Source: Bacteroidia bacterium (GTDB taxonomy: Bacteria; Bacteroidota; Bacteroidia; UKL13-3). Taken from it: a DNA stretch of 49,227 nt. A model generated the notes under the pieces. The model worked only from the letters and a program-made list of their open reading frames with translations. It was not told the DNA's origin and did not search any database. The stretch spans positions 1 through 49,227 of the forward strand of contig JAGVLJ010000010.1 of the NCBI GenBank assembly GCA_020049855.1, read 5' to 3'. Below are positions 3,849 to 21,296 of the stretch, in pieces; position 1 is the first letter of the stretch, and each line of letters opens with the position of its first letter. Made by a program: the position numbers and the translations under genes.

Positions 3849-5447
3849 TTATTTTAAATAGTAGCCTGTATTCTGCAACACGCGGATAGCTGAAGCAATA
3901 GCCTTATCCGACTGATTGATGATGTAAAAGTATCCATTATCTTTCCAAAGCTGTCGGGCAATAAGTGCTCTGGTTAAAGTGTACATCCATAACCCTGAAG
4001 TTTTTACTTCATCCTGCGTATAAGTTATATTATTGGCCTTGATAAAATCGAGCAGTTCGGCCATCAGGTGGTGCTGTGAATCGAATGTTTTATCAAACTC
4101 TTCCACAGTTGCATATCCGGCCAGCTCTTTTGTATGTTCATCGTGGTAGCTAAAGGCAAATTTGCTCAACAATCCGATAGAAAGCACTTCAGTTAAAAAA
4201 GCAGAGCGCATGGTGGTATCAAACGGAACAAACACATCGGGTTTAATTCCACCACCTCCGTACACCACCCGTCCGTTATGCGTTTTAAAAACTTCACCCT
4301 TCGCTTCTTTCGAACTATCTTCAACAGTTAACTCTCCATTGGAGAAACGTTCAAAAATTTCATGTTCGTACGCATCGGTATTGGCTTCATAGGGTTTTTG
4401 TATGCAACGACCCGAAGGAGTGTAGTACCGCGACACCGTGAGGCGCAATGCCGAGCCATCGCTTAGCTGAAACGGTTGCTGCACCAGTCCTTTTCCAAAC
4501 GACCTGCGGCCAACAATTACCCCGCGGTCCCAATCCTGAACAGCTCCTGCAAAAATTTCGCTGGCCGAAGCACTGGTTTCATCAATAAGCACCACCAGAT
4601 CTCCTTTTTCAAATAAACCTGCATGTTTGGTTTTGTATTCGCTGCGCGAGGTGCTTCTTCCCTGTGTGTACACTACCAGTTTGCCGTCTTCCAGTACTTC
4701 GTCCACCATTTTTGATACTTCTTCGAGGTAACCTCCCGGATTTCCCCTCAGGTCGATCACCAGTTTAGTGATTCCCTTTTTTTTGAACTCCTGCAAAGCA
4801 GCGGTAAACTCATTATACGTGGTGGCTGCAAATCGGCTTATTTTAATATATCCCGTTTGGGCATTAAGTTTATACGAAGCCTCTACACTGTAAATAGGAA
4901 TGGTGTTGCGGGTAATAGTGTACTCGATAAGTTTAGGCACTCCCCTGCGGAAAACAGATACAGAAACCTGTGTTCCCTTTTTTCCTTTAAGCAGTCGGGT
5001 TACGTCTTCATTTTTAATATGAATGCCTGCCACTTTTTTTCCGTTCACCTGTACAATGCGATCACCGGCCTGAATGCCCAATTGCTGCGATGGGCCACCG
5101 CTTATGGGAGTTACCACCACAATGGTATCGCCCACAATATTAAACTCTACCCCTATGCCTTCAAAATTTCCTTCCAGCGGTTCGTTTACTGCTTGCAGGT
5201 CTTTAGCCGCAATGTACGCTGAATGGGGATCGAGGGTATGCAGAAACTGATTGATGGCATCGTCTTCTGCCTGTTCAAAATTAATGGTATCCACATACAT
5301 GGCATCCACCAGATTTAGTATTTCGGCCAGCTTGGTATCAGGTGTGTTGGTAAAACTACGTTGTCCGGCCGGACGAAGTATTATTCCCGCTGCTACCCCC
5401 AGGGCAACAAGCGAAGTGTAAATTAAGGGTCTCCAGGGATTGTTCAT
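3849..5447 (-). CDS. S41-family C-terminal processing protease (CtpA/Tsp type)
   Basis: A secreted or periplasmic serine protease that trims C-terminal ends of exported proteins. One N-terminal membrane anchor (residues about 10-27) is followed by a PDZ domain (GIQAGDRIVQVNGKKV) and the S41 catalytic core. The core includes the substrate-binding strand LVIDLRGNPGGYLEE, the nucleophile region DETSASASEIFAGA (Ser at about residue 300) and the general-base lysine in RRSFGKGLVQQPF. About 532 residues is usual for Bacteroidota members. I prefer the ATG at 5447; an in-frame GTG three codons earlier is possible. It is divergent from the kinase gene at 5523, with a -7 box TATATTTG on the minus strand at 5471-5464. 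Confidence 0.93.
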   Translation of the reverse strand: MNNPWRPLIYTSLVALGVAAGIILRPAGQRSFTNTPDTKLAEILNLVDAMYVDTINFEQAEDDAINQFLHTLDPHSAYIAAKDLQAVNEPLEGNFEGIGVEFNIVGDTIVVVTPISGGPSQQLGIQAGDRIVQVNGKKVAGIHIKNEDVTRLLKGKKGTQVSVSVFRRGVPKLIEYTITRNTIPIYSVEASYKLNAQTGYIKISRFAATTYNEFTAALQEFKKKGITKLVIDLRGNPGGYLEEVSKMVDEVLEDGKLVVYTQGRSTSRSEYKTKHAGLFEKGDLVVLIDETSASASEIFAGAVQDWDRGVIVGRRSFGKGLVQQPFQLSDGSALRLTVSRYYTPSGRCIQKPYEANTDAYEHEIFERFSNGELTVEDSSKEAKGEVFKTHNGRVVYGGGGIKPDVFVPFDTTMRSAFLTEVLSIGLLSKFAFSYHDEHTKELAGYATVEEFDKTFDSQHHLMAELLDFIKANNITYTQDEVKTSGLWMYTLTRALIARQLWKDNGYFYIINQSDKAIASAIRVLQNTGYYLK

Positions 5448-5463
5448 GTTGTGCACAAGTGTT

Positions 5464-5516
5464 CAAATATAAAACCAAGAACAGGGCTTTTTTGACGAAG
5501 GGAAAATATATTTTTG
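5464..5516. promoter_or_regulatory. Divergent promoter pair between S41 protease and MurNAc/GlcNAc kinase
   Basis: Minus strand: TATATTTG at 5471-5464, 16 bases before the protease ATG. Plus strand: TATTTTTG at 5509-5516, 6 bases before the kinase ATG. Neither has a convincing TTG at exactly 19 bases, so the -33 elements are weak or replaced by activator binding. Confidence 0.5.
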
Positions 5517-5522
5517 TTCACG

Positions 5523-6365
5523 ATGAAGCTGATAGCTGATAGCGGTTCAACCAAAACAGAATGGTGCTTGGTACAAACACCTGATAACACACGGATTATT
5601 ACCACCGAGGGAATTAATCCGTATTATCAGAATACGCAGGATGTGGAAGCCATTATTGAAAAAAGTTTGGTGGCGGTGCTTGATACGCAGCTGGTGACTG
5701 AAATTTATTATTATGGTGCGGGTTGTTCAAACGAGCGTAAAAAGCAGATTGTACACCGTGCACTTACCCGTTATTTTCCATCAGCTCATACCGAAGTAAA
5801 CCATGATGTGATGGCTGCAGCCCGCTCATTGTGTAACCGCGAGCGTGGAATGGTGGCCATACTTGGCACAGGCTCCAACTCGGTTTTGTTTGACGGAGAA
5901 AAAATTATTGCCAATGTGCCGTCACTCGGTTTTACACTGGGAGATGAAGGCAGTGGCGGCTATATAGGAAAAGAATTGATTAAACAATTTTTGTACGGAG
6001 AACTTGACAGGGACGTACATCATCAGTTTGAAAAGGAATATGAGTTGAGTAAGGATGCTATTTTAGAAAAAGTATATCACCAGCCTTTACCCAACCGCTT
6101 TATGGCCGGGTTTACCCGTTTTGTACATGAGCATATACACAATCCCGGATTAAACCGCCTGGTGGTTTCGGCTTTTGAAGAGTTTATTCATCGGCATATT
6201 TCAAAATACCCCGATTATCACCACACTCTCCTGCACTGCACCGGTTCAGTGGCATTTGTATTTAAAGAACAGTTGCAGCAAGCTTGCACCAATAAACAGG
6301 TTTCATTAGGCAGGGTAGTAAAAAACCCGCTGAACGGATTAGTTCAATACCATTTACACCAGTGA
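5523..6365 (+). CDS. BadF/BadG/BcrA/BcrD-family sugar kinase, probably MurNAc/GlcNAc kinase
   Basis: An ASKHA-fold ATPase of 280 residues. The phosphate-1 loop DSGSTKTEW is near the N-terminus, GTGSNSVLF is at about residue 117, and the GDEGSGGYIGKE segment is typical of N-acetylglucosamine kinase-like members. Clostridium MurK, a kinase of MurNAc and GlcNAc, belongs to this family. Here the stop codon overlaps the start of murQ, which supports the reading that the kinase makes MurNAc-6-phosphate for MurQ, possibly GlcNAc-6-phosphate as well. The ATG at 5523 is chosen because the promoter box ends at 5516; an upstream TTG at 5514 would lie within that box. Confidence 0.85.
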   Translation: MKLIADSGSTKTEWCLVQTPDNTRIITTEGINPYYQNTQDVEAIIEKSLVAVLDTQLVTEIYYYGAGCSNERKKQIVHRALTRYFPSAHTEVNHDVMAAARSLCNRERGMVAILGTGSNSVLFDGEKIIANVPSLGFTLGDEGSGGYIGKELIKQFLYGELDRDVHHQFEKEYELSKDAILEKVYHQPLPNRFMAGFTRFVHEHIHNPGLNRLVVSAFEEFIHRHISKYPDYHHTLLHCTGSVAFVFKEQLQQACTNKQVSLGRVVKNPLNGLVQYHLHQ

Positions 6366-17299: not shown

Positions 17300-18121
17300 A
17301 TGAAACCATCATTTACCCCCCCCCAACTAAGAATTTTTCTCCTTAGCATTTCTATGCTTAGCACAGCCTCTTTATTTGCACAGTTTACAGGCACGAATCC
17401 AATTACCACAAGCAGTAATGTTAATATCCAATCGCCAGGCAATGATGCGGCTTTGGATGTTGGAGGTGCAGGCGATTCCGCAACTGTTCAAATCACTACC
17501 CCTTGGGTAATGCCTGCCAGTTATGTAGGTCCCTTTCGAATAAGAGGAACTTACTCTTTAATAAATGGTCCTACTATGTATTTCCCGCTATTTTGCGTAA
17601 CACCAAATGGAAATGTAGGTTTAAAAACAGAAACTCCCGGTGAACTGCTCACCCTGAATGGAGGCAATGCTTTAGCACTGAATGGGAGTTTTACCGCGAG
17701 TAGTGGCAATTTTGTTGCAATAAACGGTAGTTTTAAAACCCAAACCACATCAGGAACCACCAATTTTAAGGTTGATGAAAATGGTTTGTTAATAGCAAGA
17801 AGAATAGACGTTCATTTAGACCCAATTCCAGATTATGTTTTTCATGCCGCATTTAACAAAGATAGTGCGGCTTATTATGACAGTACCGGAGTTTACAAAT
17901 TTATGACCCTGCAACAAGTAGATTCTTTTGTTCAAACCAACAAACATTTACCCGGAATTAAAAGTGCTGGTGAATACCAACAGGCAGGAACCATGAATGT
18001 AGGTGAATTGCAGTTATTGTTGCTTCAAAAAGTAGAAGAGCTTACTTTGTATAATATTCAACTAATGAAGGAAATTGAAGAACTAAAAAAGAAACAAACT
18101 TTGTTAGAACAAAAGAATTAA
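17300..18121 (+). CDS. Exported tail-fibre-like protein with C-terminal coiled coil; C9 tract in its signal peptide
   Basis: A 273-residue protein. The signal peptide (ending STASLFAQ) is followed by a Gly/Asn/Thr/Ser-rich beta region with LNGS and INGS repeats around residues 115-150. Then comes a segment found at the ends of Bacteroidota tail-fibre-like surface proteins (YKFMTLQQVDSFVQTNKHLP, then GTMNVGELQLLLLQKVEELT). A heptad-type coiled coil ends in EELKKKQTLLEQKN. The ATG at 17300 begins the signal peptide. Codons 6-9 contain nine consecutive C residues (17316-17324). Loss or gain of one C gives a stop within about ten residues, so expression may be phase-variable. It is the first gene of a four-gene run. 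Confidence 0.7.
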   Translation: MKPSFTPPQLRIFLLSISMLSTASLFAQFTGTNPITTSSNVNIQSPGNDAALDVGGAGDSATVQITTPWVMPASYVGPFRIRGTYSLINGPTMYFPLFCVTPNGNVGLKTETPGELLTLNGGNALALNGSFTASSGNFVAINGSFKTQTTSGTTNFKVDENGLLIARRIDVHLDPIPDYVFHAAFNKDSAAYYDSTGVYKFMTLQQVDSFVQTNKHLPGIKSAGEYQQAGTMNVGELQLLLLQKVEELTLYNIQLMKEIEELKKKQTLLEQKN

Positions 18122-18139
18122 CCATTATACCATCAAGCC

Positions 18140-18721
18140 ATGAGAAGTTTAATTCTAGCAATATCAACATTTGCATGCCTGAGTTCTTGCAAAGATAAAA
18201 ACCCCGAAATAACCAAAACTTACGTGCTTTCGCAGGAAATGATGGATTATTTTGTAAACTATGCAGTAGGTACCAAATGGGTTTATCAGGACACCATTGA
18301 TAAAAATAACTACGATACTATTCTTTTGGTCACAAAAGAAGAATACAATGTGGTAGGAAACAGCACCCTGAAAAAGGGCTATATGCTCAACTACCTGCCA
18401 CAAAAATCAAAGAACTTTCAAATACGCATTTCTCCCGGTGCCAACAATACCAGCTATGTAAAAGTTGACCCATTGGTTGCTGCTGCAGGTGCAATTATTT
18501 TCGAAAACAATAATGGTATCTGGACAACCGGTGTTACCTTCTACGACAGTATTGAGATTACAGGGACAAAATACTATCAGGTGATTAATAGTAAATCTTC
18601 AAATTCTTACCTGCAAGACGTGTCGATTGCAAAAAGTTTAGGGTTTGTTGGTTTTTGGAAAACTAGTGGCCCAGGTGTTTTAGATAATTATTATAAGCTA
18701 ATTAAAACCATCAAGCCATGA
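18140..18721 (+). CDS. Lipoprotein, copy 1 of a tandem duplicated pair
   Basis: A 193-residue protein with a lipoprotein signal (MRSLILAISTFACLSSCKDK; Cys17 after LSS). The mature part starts ITKTYVLSQEMMDYFVNYAVGTKWVYQ and then has beta-rich stretches such as VKVDPLVAAAGAIIFENNNG and WTTGVTFYDSIEITGTKYYQ. The family is unknown. The next gene is a close copy: N-terminal 60 residues and the VDPLVAAAG...GIWTTGVT block are almost identical, while the middle and the segment before the C-terminus differ. The stop overlaps the start of copy 2 (ATGA). The C-terminal KTIKP is encoded by the same 15 bases that precede each copy. Confidence 0.7.
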   Translation: MRSLILAISTFACLSSCKDKNPEITKTYVLSQEMMDYFVNYAVGTKWVYQDTIDKNNYDTILLVTKEEYNVVGNSTLKKGYMLNYLPQKSKNFQIRISPGANNTSYVKVDPLVAAAGAIIFENNNGIWTTGVTFYDSIEITGTKYYQVINSKSSNSYLQDVSIAKSLGFVGFWKTSGPGVLDNYYKLIKTIKP

Positions 18722-19308
18722 GAAGTTTAATTTTAGCAATATCGGCATTTGCATGCCTGAGTTCTTGCAAAGATAAAGACCCCGAAATAACCAAAACTTA
18801 CGGGCTTTCCCAGGAAATGATGGATTATTTTGTAAACTATGCGGTAGGCACCAAATGGGTTTATCAGGACACTATAGATAAAAACAACTACGATACCATT
18901 GTACTACTATCTAAACAACCTATTGATGTAAATTCCGGAAATGGAACTCTATCAAAAGGTTTTGAATTGTATTACCAACCAAAAAAATCGAAAGATTTTA
19001 AGGTATTTGTAAGTGCCGGTAACAATAATAGTTACTATGTTAAAGTTGACCCATTAGTTGCTGCTGCAGGCAAAATTGTGTTTGAAAACAATAATGGCAT
19101 CTGGACAACCGGTGTTACCTACTCCGACAGCATAGAAATTACCGGGAATAAATTTTATCAGGTGATTTATAGTAAAAGTAACAATATGTATCAATACGAA
19201 ATGAGAATTGCTAAAAATAGCGGCATCATTTTTTTTCTATATAGCAATTCAAATCCGCAAAACCCATTTGGTGCCGCATACAAACTTATAAAAACCATCA
19301 AGCCATGA
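18718..19308 (+). CDS. Lipoprotein, copy 2 of a tandem duplicated pair
   Basis: A 196-residue paralogue of the preceding gene with the same signal peptide (LSSCKDKDPEITKTYGLSQE) and the same C-terminal LIKTIKP. Differences cluster at about residues 62-95 (VLLSKQPIDVNSGNGTLSKG instead of the copy 1 text) and in the last third (SNNMYQYEMRIAKNSGIIFF). It overlaps copy 1 at its start and the protease gene at its stop, each as ATGA, so the three are translationally coupled. The role is unknown; position suggests a partner of the protease, such as a chaperone, inhibitor or surface anchor. Confidence 0.7.
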   Translation: MRSLILAISAFACLSSCKDKDPEITKTYGLSQEMMDYFVNYAVGTKWVYQDTIDKNNYDTIVLLSKQPIDVNSGNGTLSKGFELYYQPKKSKDFKVFVSAGNNNSYYVKVDPLVAAAGKIVFENNNGIWTTGVTYSDSIEITGNKFYQVIYSKSNNMYQYEMRIAKNSGIIFFLYSNSNPQNPFGAAYKLIKTIKP

Positions 19309-21296
19309 AACGGAGATTGATTAAAGTAGTTCTGTTGTTATTATTTACTTTTATAAATATAATGGTAAGTGCCCAGCCATCCGAACCCGGATTTCCTGCT
19401 GCATTAATGTATCAGTTGCCTACGTCTAGTTTACCTGTTGTGAACCTGCCCTATTTTAATAATGAGGAGTTGATTGCAGCCGATACTTGTGCAGCCTGTG
19501 GCGAAGGTTATGGTGTAGATGCTAATGTAAATTTTGATTTTTGGGAGAATAGTGAATTGCAAATGATAGATAACCCATTTGAAAAAGTTGAAGTTTATCG
19601 CACAAAAATAGTTTCCCCTTCGGCCCAAGCATTGCATGTTATTTTCAGTCACTTTATGCTTTCCGAAAATGAACTCCTTTTTATCTATAGTCCAAATGAT
19701 ACAAATAGAATTTTAGGAGCTTACTCTGCTCACAACAATAAACCTGATTTATCTTTTATTAGCAACAGAATTGGCGATAAAGAATTAATAATTGAGGTGA
19801 ACAGAAGACCTCAACTTCAAACGAATATCAAAGGTATTTTAAAGGTTGGTAAATTTATTCATGTATATAAAGATAGAGATGCATTTGAGAACTCTTTAAA
19901 TTGTCACGAAAATGTGATTTGCGCTCCATGGTATAATGTCTGGTGCAATCAAATTAGAAGCGTAATTAAATTACTTCGTCATAAGGAAAACGAAGGGTGG
20001 TTTTTGTGTTCAGGTGCCATAGTAAATAATTTAAACAATAATTTTGATCCTCTGATTTTAACCGCTAACCATTGCGTGGATAATGGCGATGATTTTGCTA
20101 ATTGGACGGCATTTTTCAACTTTCAAAGTATCACTTGTAATCCGTCAACCAATGGAAATGATTTAATGACCGTGAGCGGAATGGATATTGTAACACAAAA
20201 TTACGATAATAACGGTTGCCCTGATATTGCGCTGCTAAGACTTAGACAGTTTATTCCTGAACAGTATAATGTTTTTTTTAGCGGGTGGAACAGAAGAGCC
20301 TGGAGTTCTTTACCGGGTGATGACAGGGGAATTGGCATCCATCATCCTGCAGGCGATGTAAAGAAAATATCAGAAGGATATAGGGTAAACCCGCTACTTT
20401 CAAGTTGTGTAAAAGTGAACTGGACTACCGGCTATACAGAGGGAGGTTCATCGGGCTCCCCTTTATTTATTACCAGCAAAGAAATAATTGGTGTGTTATC
20501 ATGGAGCTGGCGCGAAGAGGATCATTGTGCCGATGATGCCAATTTTTTTTATAGCTGGCTGCACAAAAGCTGGACACCATTGTGGCCTTATTTAGCTCCA
20601 ACCAATAGCGATGCTTTAACTCATTATGGTATTGATCCCATTTCGGCTTGTCAGCCGATAATAAATTTGAACAGAAGATTTTTTCCAGGTAATGATTGGC
20701 AGGTTAAAAATCAGATAATCATTCAGGCATCGCAACAGGTGAATGTGGCAAATGTAACAGCAACTTCAATAGAACAATCTCCATTTAATGTACCTGCTTT
20801 TAATTCTGATTACATTATAAGAGCTGGCAATAGAATAACTATTTTCCCGAGATTCAGAGTAAATGCACCGGACCGCATTGGCAGTTCGGGTATATATACC
20901 GGAAATTTTACATTTGGCTACCAAAATCGGGTTAGTTTCCAAATATCCCCCTGCGTTCCATTTATTGACGAATGCGGTTTTAATCATCAAAATGCATCGG
21001 TTTCCCTTTCAAAAAATGCCAACTCAGGGAATAGTGTTTCATCTGATTTGTTTCAATTTAAGGTATTTCCCAATCCAACCAACGGGGGACTTCAATTGTT
21101 TTTAACAAGCGAAAGTCAAATAAGTAAGATAAGAATAGTTGATGTTTTTGAAAAGGTGGTTTATGCCAATGAAGGTTTTGATAGTGAAAATAAAACTTTT
21201 GCTCTTTCGCTTTCAGGATTTTCATCAGGAGTGTATTTTATTTCAGTTTGGGCCGCCACTGGGCAGTTTGAATCTAAAAAATTCATAGTTAATTAA
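19305..21296 (+). CDS. Secreted trypsin-like (lysyl-endopeptidase-type) serine protease with T9SS sorting domain
   Basis: A 663-residue exported protease. Signal peptide (to about residue 24), propeptide region to about 200, then a chymotrypsin-fold domain with visible triad: His in LTANHCVDNGDD, Asp in GCPDIALLRL and Ser in TEGGSSGSPLF. Paired cysteines nearby (CHENVICAPW, CSGAIV) resemble the Lys-C/Achromobacter protease I group. After a beta domain (about 450-560), the C-terminal 80 residues form a type A T9SS sorting domain: FKVFPNPTNGGLQLFL, ending SGVYFISVWAATGQFESKKFIVN. It is probably exported by T9SS and surface-attached or released. Its ATG overlaps the stop of the second lipoprotein gene. 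It is the last gene before a convergent receptor gene. Confidence 0.88.
   Translation: MKRRLIKVVLLLLFTFINIMVSAQPSEPGFPAALMYQLPTSSLPVVNLPYFNNEELIAADTCAACGEGYGVDANVNFDFWENSELQMIDNPFEKVEVYRTKIVSPSAQALHVIFSHFMLSENELLFIYSPNDTNRILGAYSAHNNKPDLSFISNRIGDKELIIEVNRRPQLQTNIKGILKVGKFIHVYKDRDAFENSLNCHENVICAPWYNVWCNQIRSVIKLLRHKENEGWFLCSGAIVNNLNNNFDPLILTANHCVDNGDDFANWTAFFNFQSITCNPSTNGNDLMTVSGMDIVTQNYDNNGCPDIALLRLRQFIPEQYNVFFSGWNRRAWSSLPGDDRGIGIHHPAGDVKKISEGYRVNPLLSSCVKVNWTTGYTEGGSSGSPLFITSKEIIGVLSWSWREEDHCADDANFFYSWLHKSWTPLWPYLAPTNSDALTHYGIDPISACQPIINLNRRFFPGNDWQVKNQIIIQASQQVNVANVTATSIEQSPFNVPAFNSDYIIRAGNRITIFPRFRVNAPDRIGSSGIYTGNFTFGYQNRVSFQISPCVPFIDECGFNHQNASVSLSKNANSGNSVSSDLFQFKVFPNPTNGGLQLFLTSESQISKIRIVDVFEKVVYANEGFDSENKTFALSLSGFSSGVYFISVWAATGQFESKKFIVN

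Follow-up and report, generated by a model that had tools for sequence, protein, structure and literature searches.

A small lipoprotein is encoded before each of the KLIKK proteases of T. forsythia, and these lipoproteins lack mutual similarity (PMC4404884); each has been described as inhibiting specifically the protease with which it is co-expressed (PMC7296668), and they are known as potempins. In the PrcB-PrcA-PrtP (dentilisin) operon of the spirochaete Treponema denticola, the first gene encodes PrcB, a 23-kDa lipoprotein that binds the surface protease PrtP and that PrtP requires (PMC8167434). Tandem lipoprotein genes with a conserved 5′ region and a variable body also occur in mycoplasmas (Vpma/Vsp), in which the Vpma genes have their 5′ UTR and signal-peptide regions in common (PMC2268961).

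The window (the whole stretch of DNA analyzed here, 49,227 nucleotides in length) contains two tandem lipoprotein genes followed by the gene for a T9SS protease, arranged as follows:

17300 to 18121, forward strand: upstream gene P0004, a secreted, fibre-like protein with a C-terminal coiled coil
18129 to 18143, forward strand: 15-bp repeat copy 1, non-coding leader plus the ATGA of lipoprotein A
18140 to 18721, forward strand: lipoprotein A, 193 aa, lipobox LSSC, WVY-type superfamily
18707 to 18721, forward strand: 15-bp repeat copy 2, (K)TIKP plus the TGA of A overlapping the ATG of B
18718 to 19308, forward strand: lipoprotein B, 196 aa, 71% identical to A
19294 to 19308, forward strand: 15-bp repeat copy 3, (K)TIKP plus the TGA of B overlapping the protease ATG
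19305 to 21296, forward strand: T9SS-exported trypsin-fold protease, 663 aa, lysyl-endopeptidase-like at residues ~200-424, sorting domain at 587-662

ATGA overlaps join the A and B open reading frames, and those of B and the protease. This operon-like gene order suggests that the fibre-like secreted protein, the lipoprotein(s) and the T9SS-exported protease form one operon; a promoter and terminator scan of the locus gave signal no higher than in shuffled sequences. P0004 had no matches in Pfam or NCBIfam, and its homologues lie 5′ of the lipoprotein gene in six related genomes (G002, G318, G197, G494, G294, and G058); in a seventh, G495, the homologue is reduced to a 76-codon fragment.

The protease combines a trypsin-like peptidase domain with a Por_Secre_tail (T9SS) domain, the latter a T9SS type A sorting domain according to both Por_Secre_tail (42.5 bits, cut-off 27) and TIGR04183 (36.3, cut-off 23). 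Its catalytic domain (200-424) is homologous to lysyl endopeptidase (Achromobacter protease I; E 1e-16 to PDB 4nsv), with alignment of the His, Asp, and GSSGSP serine of the catalytic triad. Unlike lysyl endopeptidase, the window protease also has a pro-domain and a T9SS tail, and the specificity residues are not clearly conserved; by eye, the aspartate that sets Lys specificity appears not to be conserved in the alignment. The protease is a mosaic, with a pro-domain that is G197-like and residues ~330-439 that are G318-like (95/109 identical), as supported by a breakpoint test that ignores rate variation among sites (0/2000 permutations).

The tight coupling to a T9SS protease proposed in an earlier note on this DNA proved to be lasting. 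A homologous lipoprotein is encoded directly 5′ of the full-length subfamily protease in all seven genomes that have one (window, G197, G318, G495, G494, G294, and G058), with a spacing of -4 bp (ATGA overlap) in six and +5 bp in G058, and the proteases of the other six are 32-59% identical to that of the window. All intact close-clade lipoprotein orthologues found were protease-linked, including those present in single copy, and the comparison shows the lipoprotein-protease pair to be conserved across families. In G366 (L100, ~4800-5770), the lipoprotein is kept with only the start of the protease (read by eye); shortly past its signal peptide, this protease gene gives way to unrelated, repeat-rich sequence. 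A search of 63 other genomes in the order of the window, including the congener G001, recovered the protease in none, although among these the G002 contig ends before the expected place of the protease. Based on this absence, the operon is patchily distributed and may have been acquired horizontally. In G001 (contig C26, L043), the same histidine ammonia-lyase-like neighbour is present upstream, followed by no fibre-lipoprotein-protease cassette. Viral origin and plasmid carriage were both rejected: relatives are absent from viral contigs, and protease matches on plasmids reached only 27-29%.

Copy number of the lipoprotein varies among the relatives compared, as the earlier note had anticipated. 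Two copies are present in the window and G495, G002 has two or more, and a single copy is found in G318 (from the genus of G495), G494, G197, G294, and G058, which indicates that unit number is evolutionarily labile. The G002 contig stops after 127 nt that exactly match its own first copy, a length that may reflect an assembler k-mer size of 127. This contig end, at exactly the end of a 127-nt repeat, together with the origin of the window from a MAG, raises the concern that tandem copies were collapsed into a chimera during assembly of the metagenome bin; we regard such an artefact as highly improbable, given that the longest exact run between A and B in the window is 32 bp, and thus easy to assemble, and that the same architecture occurs in independent assemblies of another family (G495).

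The 15-bp sequence ACCATCAAGCCATGA was reported in the earlier note as three exact repeats, and we find them at 18129-18143, 18707-18721, and 19294-19308. Among all 15-mers of the window, it alone is present in three exact copies (0/200 shuffles produced such a 15-mer), and a search allowing at most one mismatch gave no copy beyond these three in the 2.9-Mb genome; with three copies in total, it was rejected as a genome-wide element. Its ascribed roles as leader, C-terminal code, and ATGA are distributed among the copies: copy 1 is non-coding leader, located 7 bp past the stop of the 17300-18121 gene, and copies 2 and 3 encode the TIKP-stop of a lipoprotein. On the 3′ side, copies 1 and 2 remain identical for another 11 bp, and on the 5′ side, copies 2 and 3 do so for another 3 bp; identity of copies 1 and 3 stops at the borders of the 15-mer (0 bp on either flank). 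The 15-mer also sits inside a longer repeat of A and B, which have 93% nucleotide identity across the first 62 codons. Junctions resembling it are found at the lipoprotein/protease borders of single-copy relatives; in single-copy G318, the upstream gene ends in KLIKTVQP plus ATGA, and the lipoprotein in KLIKTIKP plus ATGA. The sequence comparison indicates that the 15-bp repeat is a by-product of a conserved C-terminal tail and translational coupling, and not a special seed.

One reading that follows the earlier note is that the 15-bp repeat seeded a recent duplication, after which the middles of the two copies diverged. Similar junctions on both sides of the G318 lipoprotein would offer a possible substrate for such an event. 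However, the lack of any shared base pair between copies 1 and 3 beyond the 15-mer, the age of the A and B middles, which predate the split from G002, and the location of the recombining tract in a ~200-bp 5′ segment make this model very unlikely.

The similarity of A and B is a patchwork. Nucleotide identity by segment is 93, 56, 84, and 56%; the copies resemble each other in codons 1-62, again at around 107-147, and in the last ~9 residues, and they diverge in 62-107 and 147-185. The pattern thus goes beyond the shared ends and different middle described earlier. Synonymous divergence (dS) between A and B is 0.30 in codons 1-62 and saturated in 62-107. In the first ~140 nt of both copies, comparison of the window with G002 gave 25 species-specific sites (six of which represent one 6-nt indel) and no copy-specific sites, and the middle of A has 82% nucleotide identity to G002A versus 56% to B. 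The simplest reading of these two observations is that the duplication came before the two species separated, and that homogenisation of the 5′ end followed; the 5′ third of A and B has become uniform within each species, and the middles represent old, distinct lineages.

The bodies are themselves mosaic: the C-terminus of A is 77% identical to G318 versus 57% to its nearest relative, G002A (0/2000 permutations in a breakpoint test, of a kind that ignores rate variation among sites), and the middle of B is G197/G495-like. Recombination between lipoprotein copies, which the earlier note had proposed, is thus supported, with a ~200-bp 5′ tract exchanged; its proposal that a binding face diverged after duplication is not, since the divergent parts predate the species split and are mosaic, and it is the similar part that was recently homogenised. 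Neighbouring copies swap the 5′ third (signal peptide, lipobox, and first ~60 codons), through either unequal crossing-over or gene conversion, and the lipoprotein body meanwhile stays or becomes diverse.

Relatives of the lipoprotein superfamily were identified in 56 of 395 genomes of the class Bacteroidia (profile A3 search), and 16 of the 60 gene clusters examined have at least two copies. In a 93-member tree, most copies from arrays group with others of the same genome, which implies either repeated homogenisation or numerous independent tandem expansions. When pairs are matched for divergence in the remainder of the gene, the 5′ segment of array neighbours is 24 points more identical, versus an excess of 5 points in different-genome pairs and ~5 in non-array paralogues of one genome; the effect was seen in 9/12 arrays (p 6e-7, a nominal value, the pairs not being independent). 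The extreme is G359, with 207 identical 5′ bases (dS ~0 in this part versus saturated), a middle of ~21% amino-acid identity, and a conserved tail; in G393, the ATGA-overlap design appears again, with its own conserved tail. These comparisons reveal a recurrent pattern in unrelated superfamily arrays: the anchor end is near-identical and the body diversified. In G318, near-identical lipoprotein arrays with ~713-bp units are present on two contigs (L104 and L106), and one of the arrays extends to the end of its contig.

It is possible, although we rate it as rather unlikely, that these arrays constitute a diversification system of Bacteroidia, in which recombination among tandem, partner-coupled outer-membrane lipoproteins preserves the identity of the anchor end and swaps or diversifies the recognition body, providing several matched partners (e.g., inhibitors or immunity-like guards) for exported proteins; such a system would be previously undescribed. 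The repeated finding of arrays that combine a constant 5′ end with a variable body, reminiscent of the 5′ regions shared by Vpma genes (PMC2268961), could instead reflect Vpma/Vsp-like cassettes for antigen or phage-receptor diversification, the protease being a mere operon neighbour. We consider this improbable: one lipoprotein subfamily shows lasting one-to-one linkage with one protease subfamily across families, and the ATGA coupling argues against Vpma-like promoter switching; on informal inspection, neither inverted promoters nor a recombinase came to notice. In Vpma/Vsp, expression is switched by Xer1 site-specific recombination, whereas the window genes are translationally coupled in a protease operon.

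Our tentatively favoured reading is that the lipoproteins are a dedicated surface partner of the T9SS protease, probably a potempin-like inhibitor, with the variable body serving for recognition and extra copies conferring more specificities. The lipoprotein would sit on the outer membrane and bind the co-produced protease at or during export, in an inhibitor or guard role like that of the T. forsythia potempins; the constant part would direct sorting and tether the protein, recognition would fall to the variable body, and with an extra copy the cell would hold two specificities. This reading draws on the conserved linkage, copy-number variation and 5′ homogenisation described above, and on analogy with the KLIKK proteases, which are likewise T9SS cargo, each with a small upstream lipoprotein. 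As in the potempin-KLIKK pairs, the small lipoprotein gene lies directly upstream of a T9SS protease on the same strand; in those pairs, lipoproteins at different loci are mutually dissimilar and variable between strains. In contrast to potempin genes (360-550 bp), the window lipoprotein genes are 582-591 bp, tandem, and have a homogenised 5′ end, and the proteins have no detectable homologue among solved structures.

Several observations count against an inhibitor. The lipoproteins lack an inhibitor domain, family match, or solved homologue: A and B had no match in Pfam or NCBIfam, and the profile search of solved structures gave only non-significant matches (4fvs, E 0.81), with no PDB chain beyond chance. 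(An AlphaFold model from three sequences had a pLDDT of 31 and was discarded.) Co-variation of lipoprotein C-terminal type with protease catalytic type, suggested by the window and G318, is broken by G495 and was rejected. Elsewhere in the superfamily, outside the protease-linked subfamily, the downstream genes often encode exported proteins, but often no protease. In seven loci (L099, L109, L148, L161, L162, L177, and L179), the downstream gene belongs to a YWNYRxRL-type exported family that starts KKYWNYRDRLRKxF and is 1100-1500 aa if complete; no catalytic Pfam domain was identified in the two members scanned. Linkage to T9SS cargo across the superfamily was rejected, as the T9SS sorting domain showed no clear enrichment downstream, outside the protease-linked subfamily (4/39 versus 42/486 background ORFs), which makes it less likely that the superfamily as a whole serves proteases alone.

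Among the inferred roles we rank inhibition as most likely, with a PrcB-like stabiliser as the main rival: the lipoproteins would serve as stabiliser, anchor, or chaperone, by which the protease or pro-protease is held or folded at the outer membrane. We view this as possible but less probable. Its precedent is PrcB, likewise a lipoprotein whose gene opens the operon of a surface protease; it is needed by that protease (PMC8167434) and does not inhibit it, although the system is spirochaetal, has a subtilisin-family protease, and lacks T9SS. The large YWNYR-type proteins, unrecognised as proteases, are also better accommodated by a general cargo partner. However, diversification of the body suits recognition better than generic tethering, and T9SS cargo is normally anchored via its own sorting domain, with no need of a lipoprotein.

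The superfamily, whose scanned members have no Pfam or NCBIfam match, is present in about one in seven of the Bacteroidia genomes sampled. Should its members guard or stabilise matching exported enzymes, the potempin principle would no longer be confined to one oral pathogen but would extend to other Bacteroidia, and this would suggest how T9SS proteases change specificity without harm to the cell.

Unrelated small lipoproteins are encoded directly upstream of several more distant T9SS lysyl-endopeptidases, an arrangement parallel to that of the KLIKK proteases in T. forsythia. Two of these lipoproteins, just 5′ of sibling T9SS lysyl-endopeptidases, are NigD-like (L020 958-1431; L069 2764-3228); they are, as in the window, small lipoproteins of Bacteroidota, but A and B were not matched by the NigD models of Pfam and NCBIfam. 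The source genome of the window also encodes a second superfamily pair (G000:C23, L185, 662-6842), comprising two divergent lipoproteins immediately followed by a 1573-aa T9SS-sorted protein.
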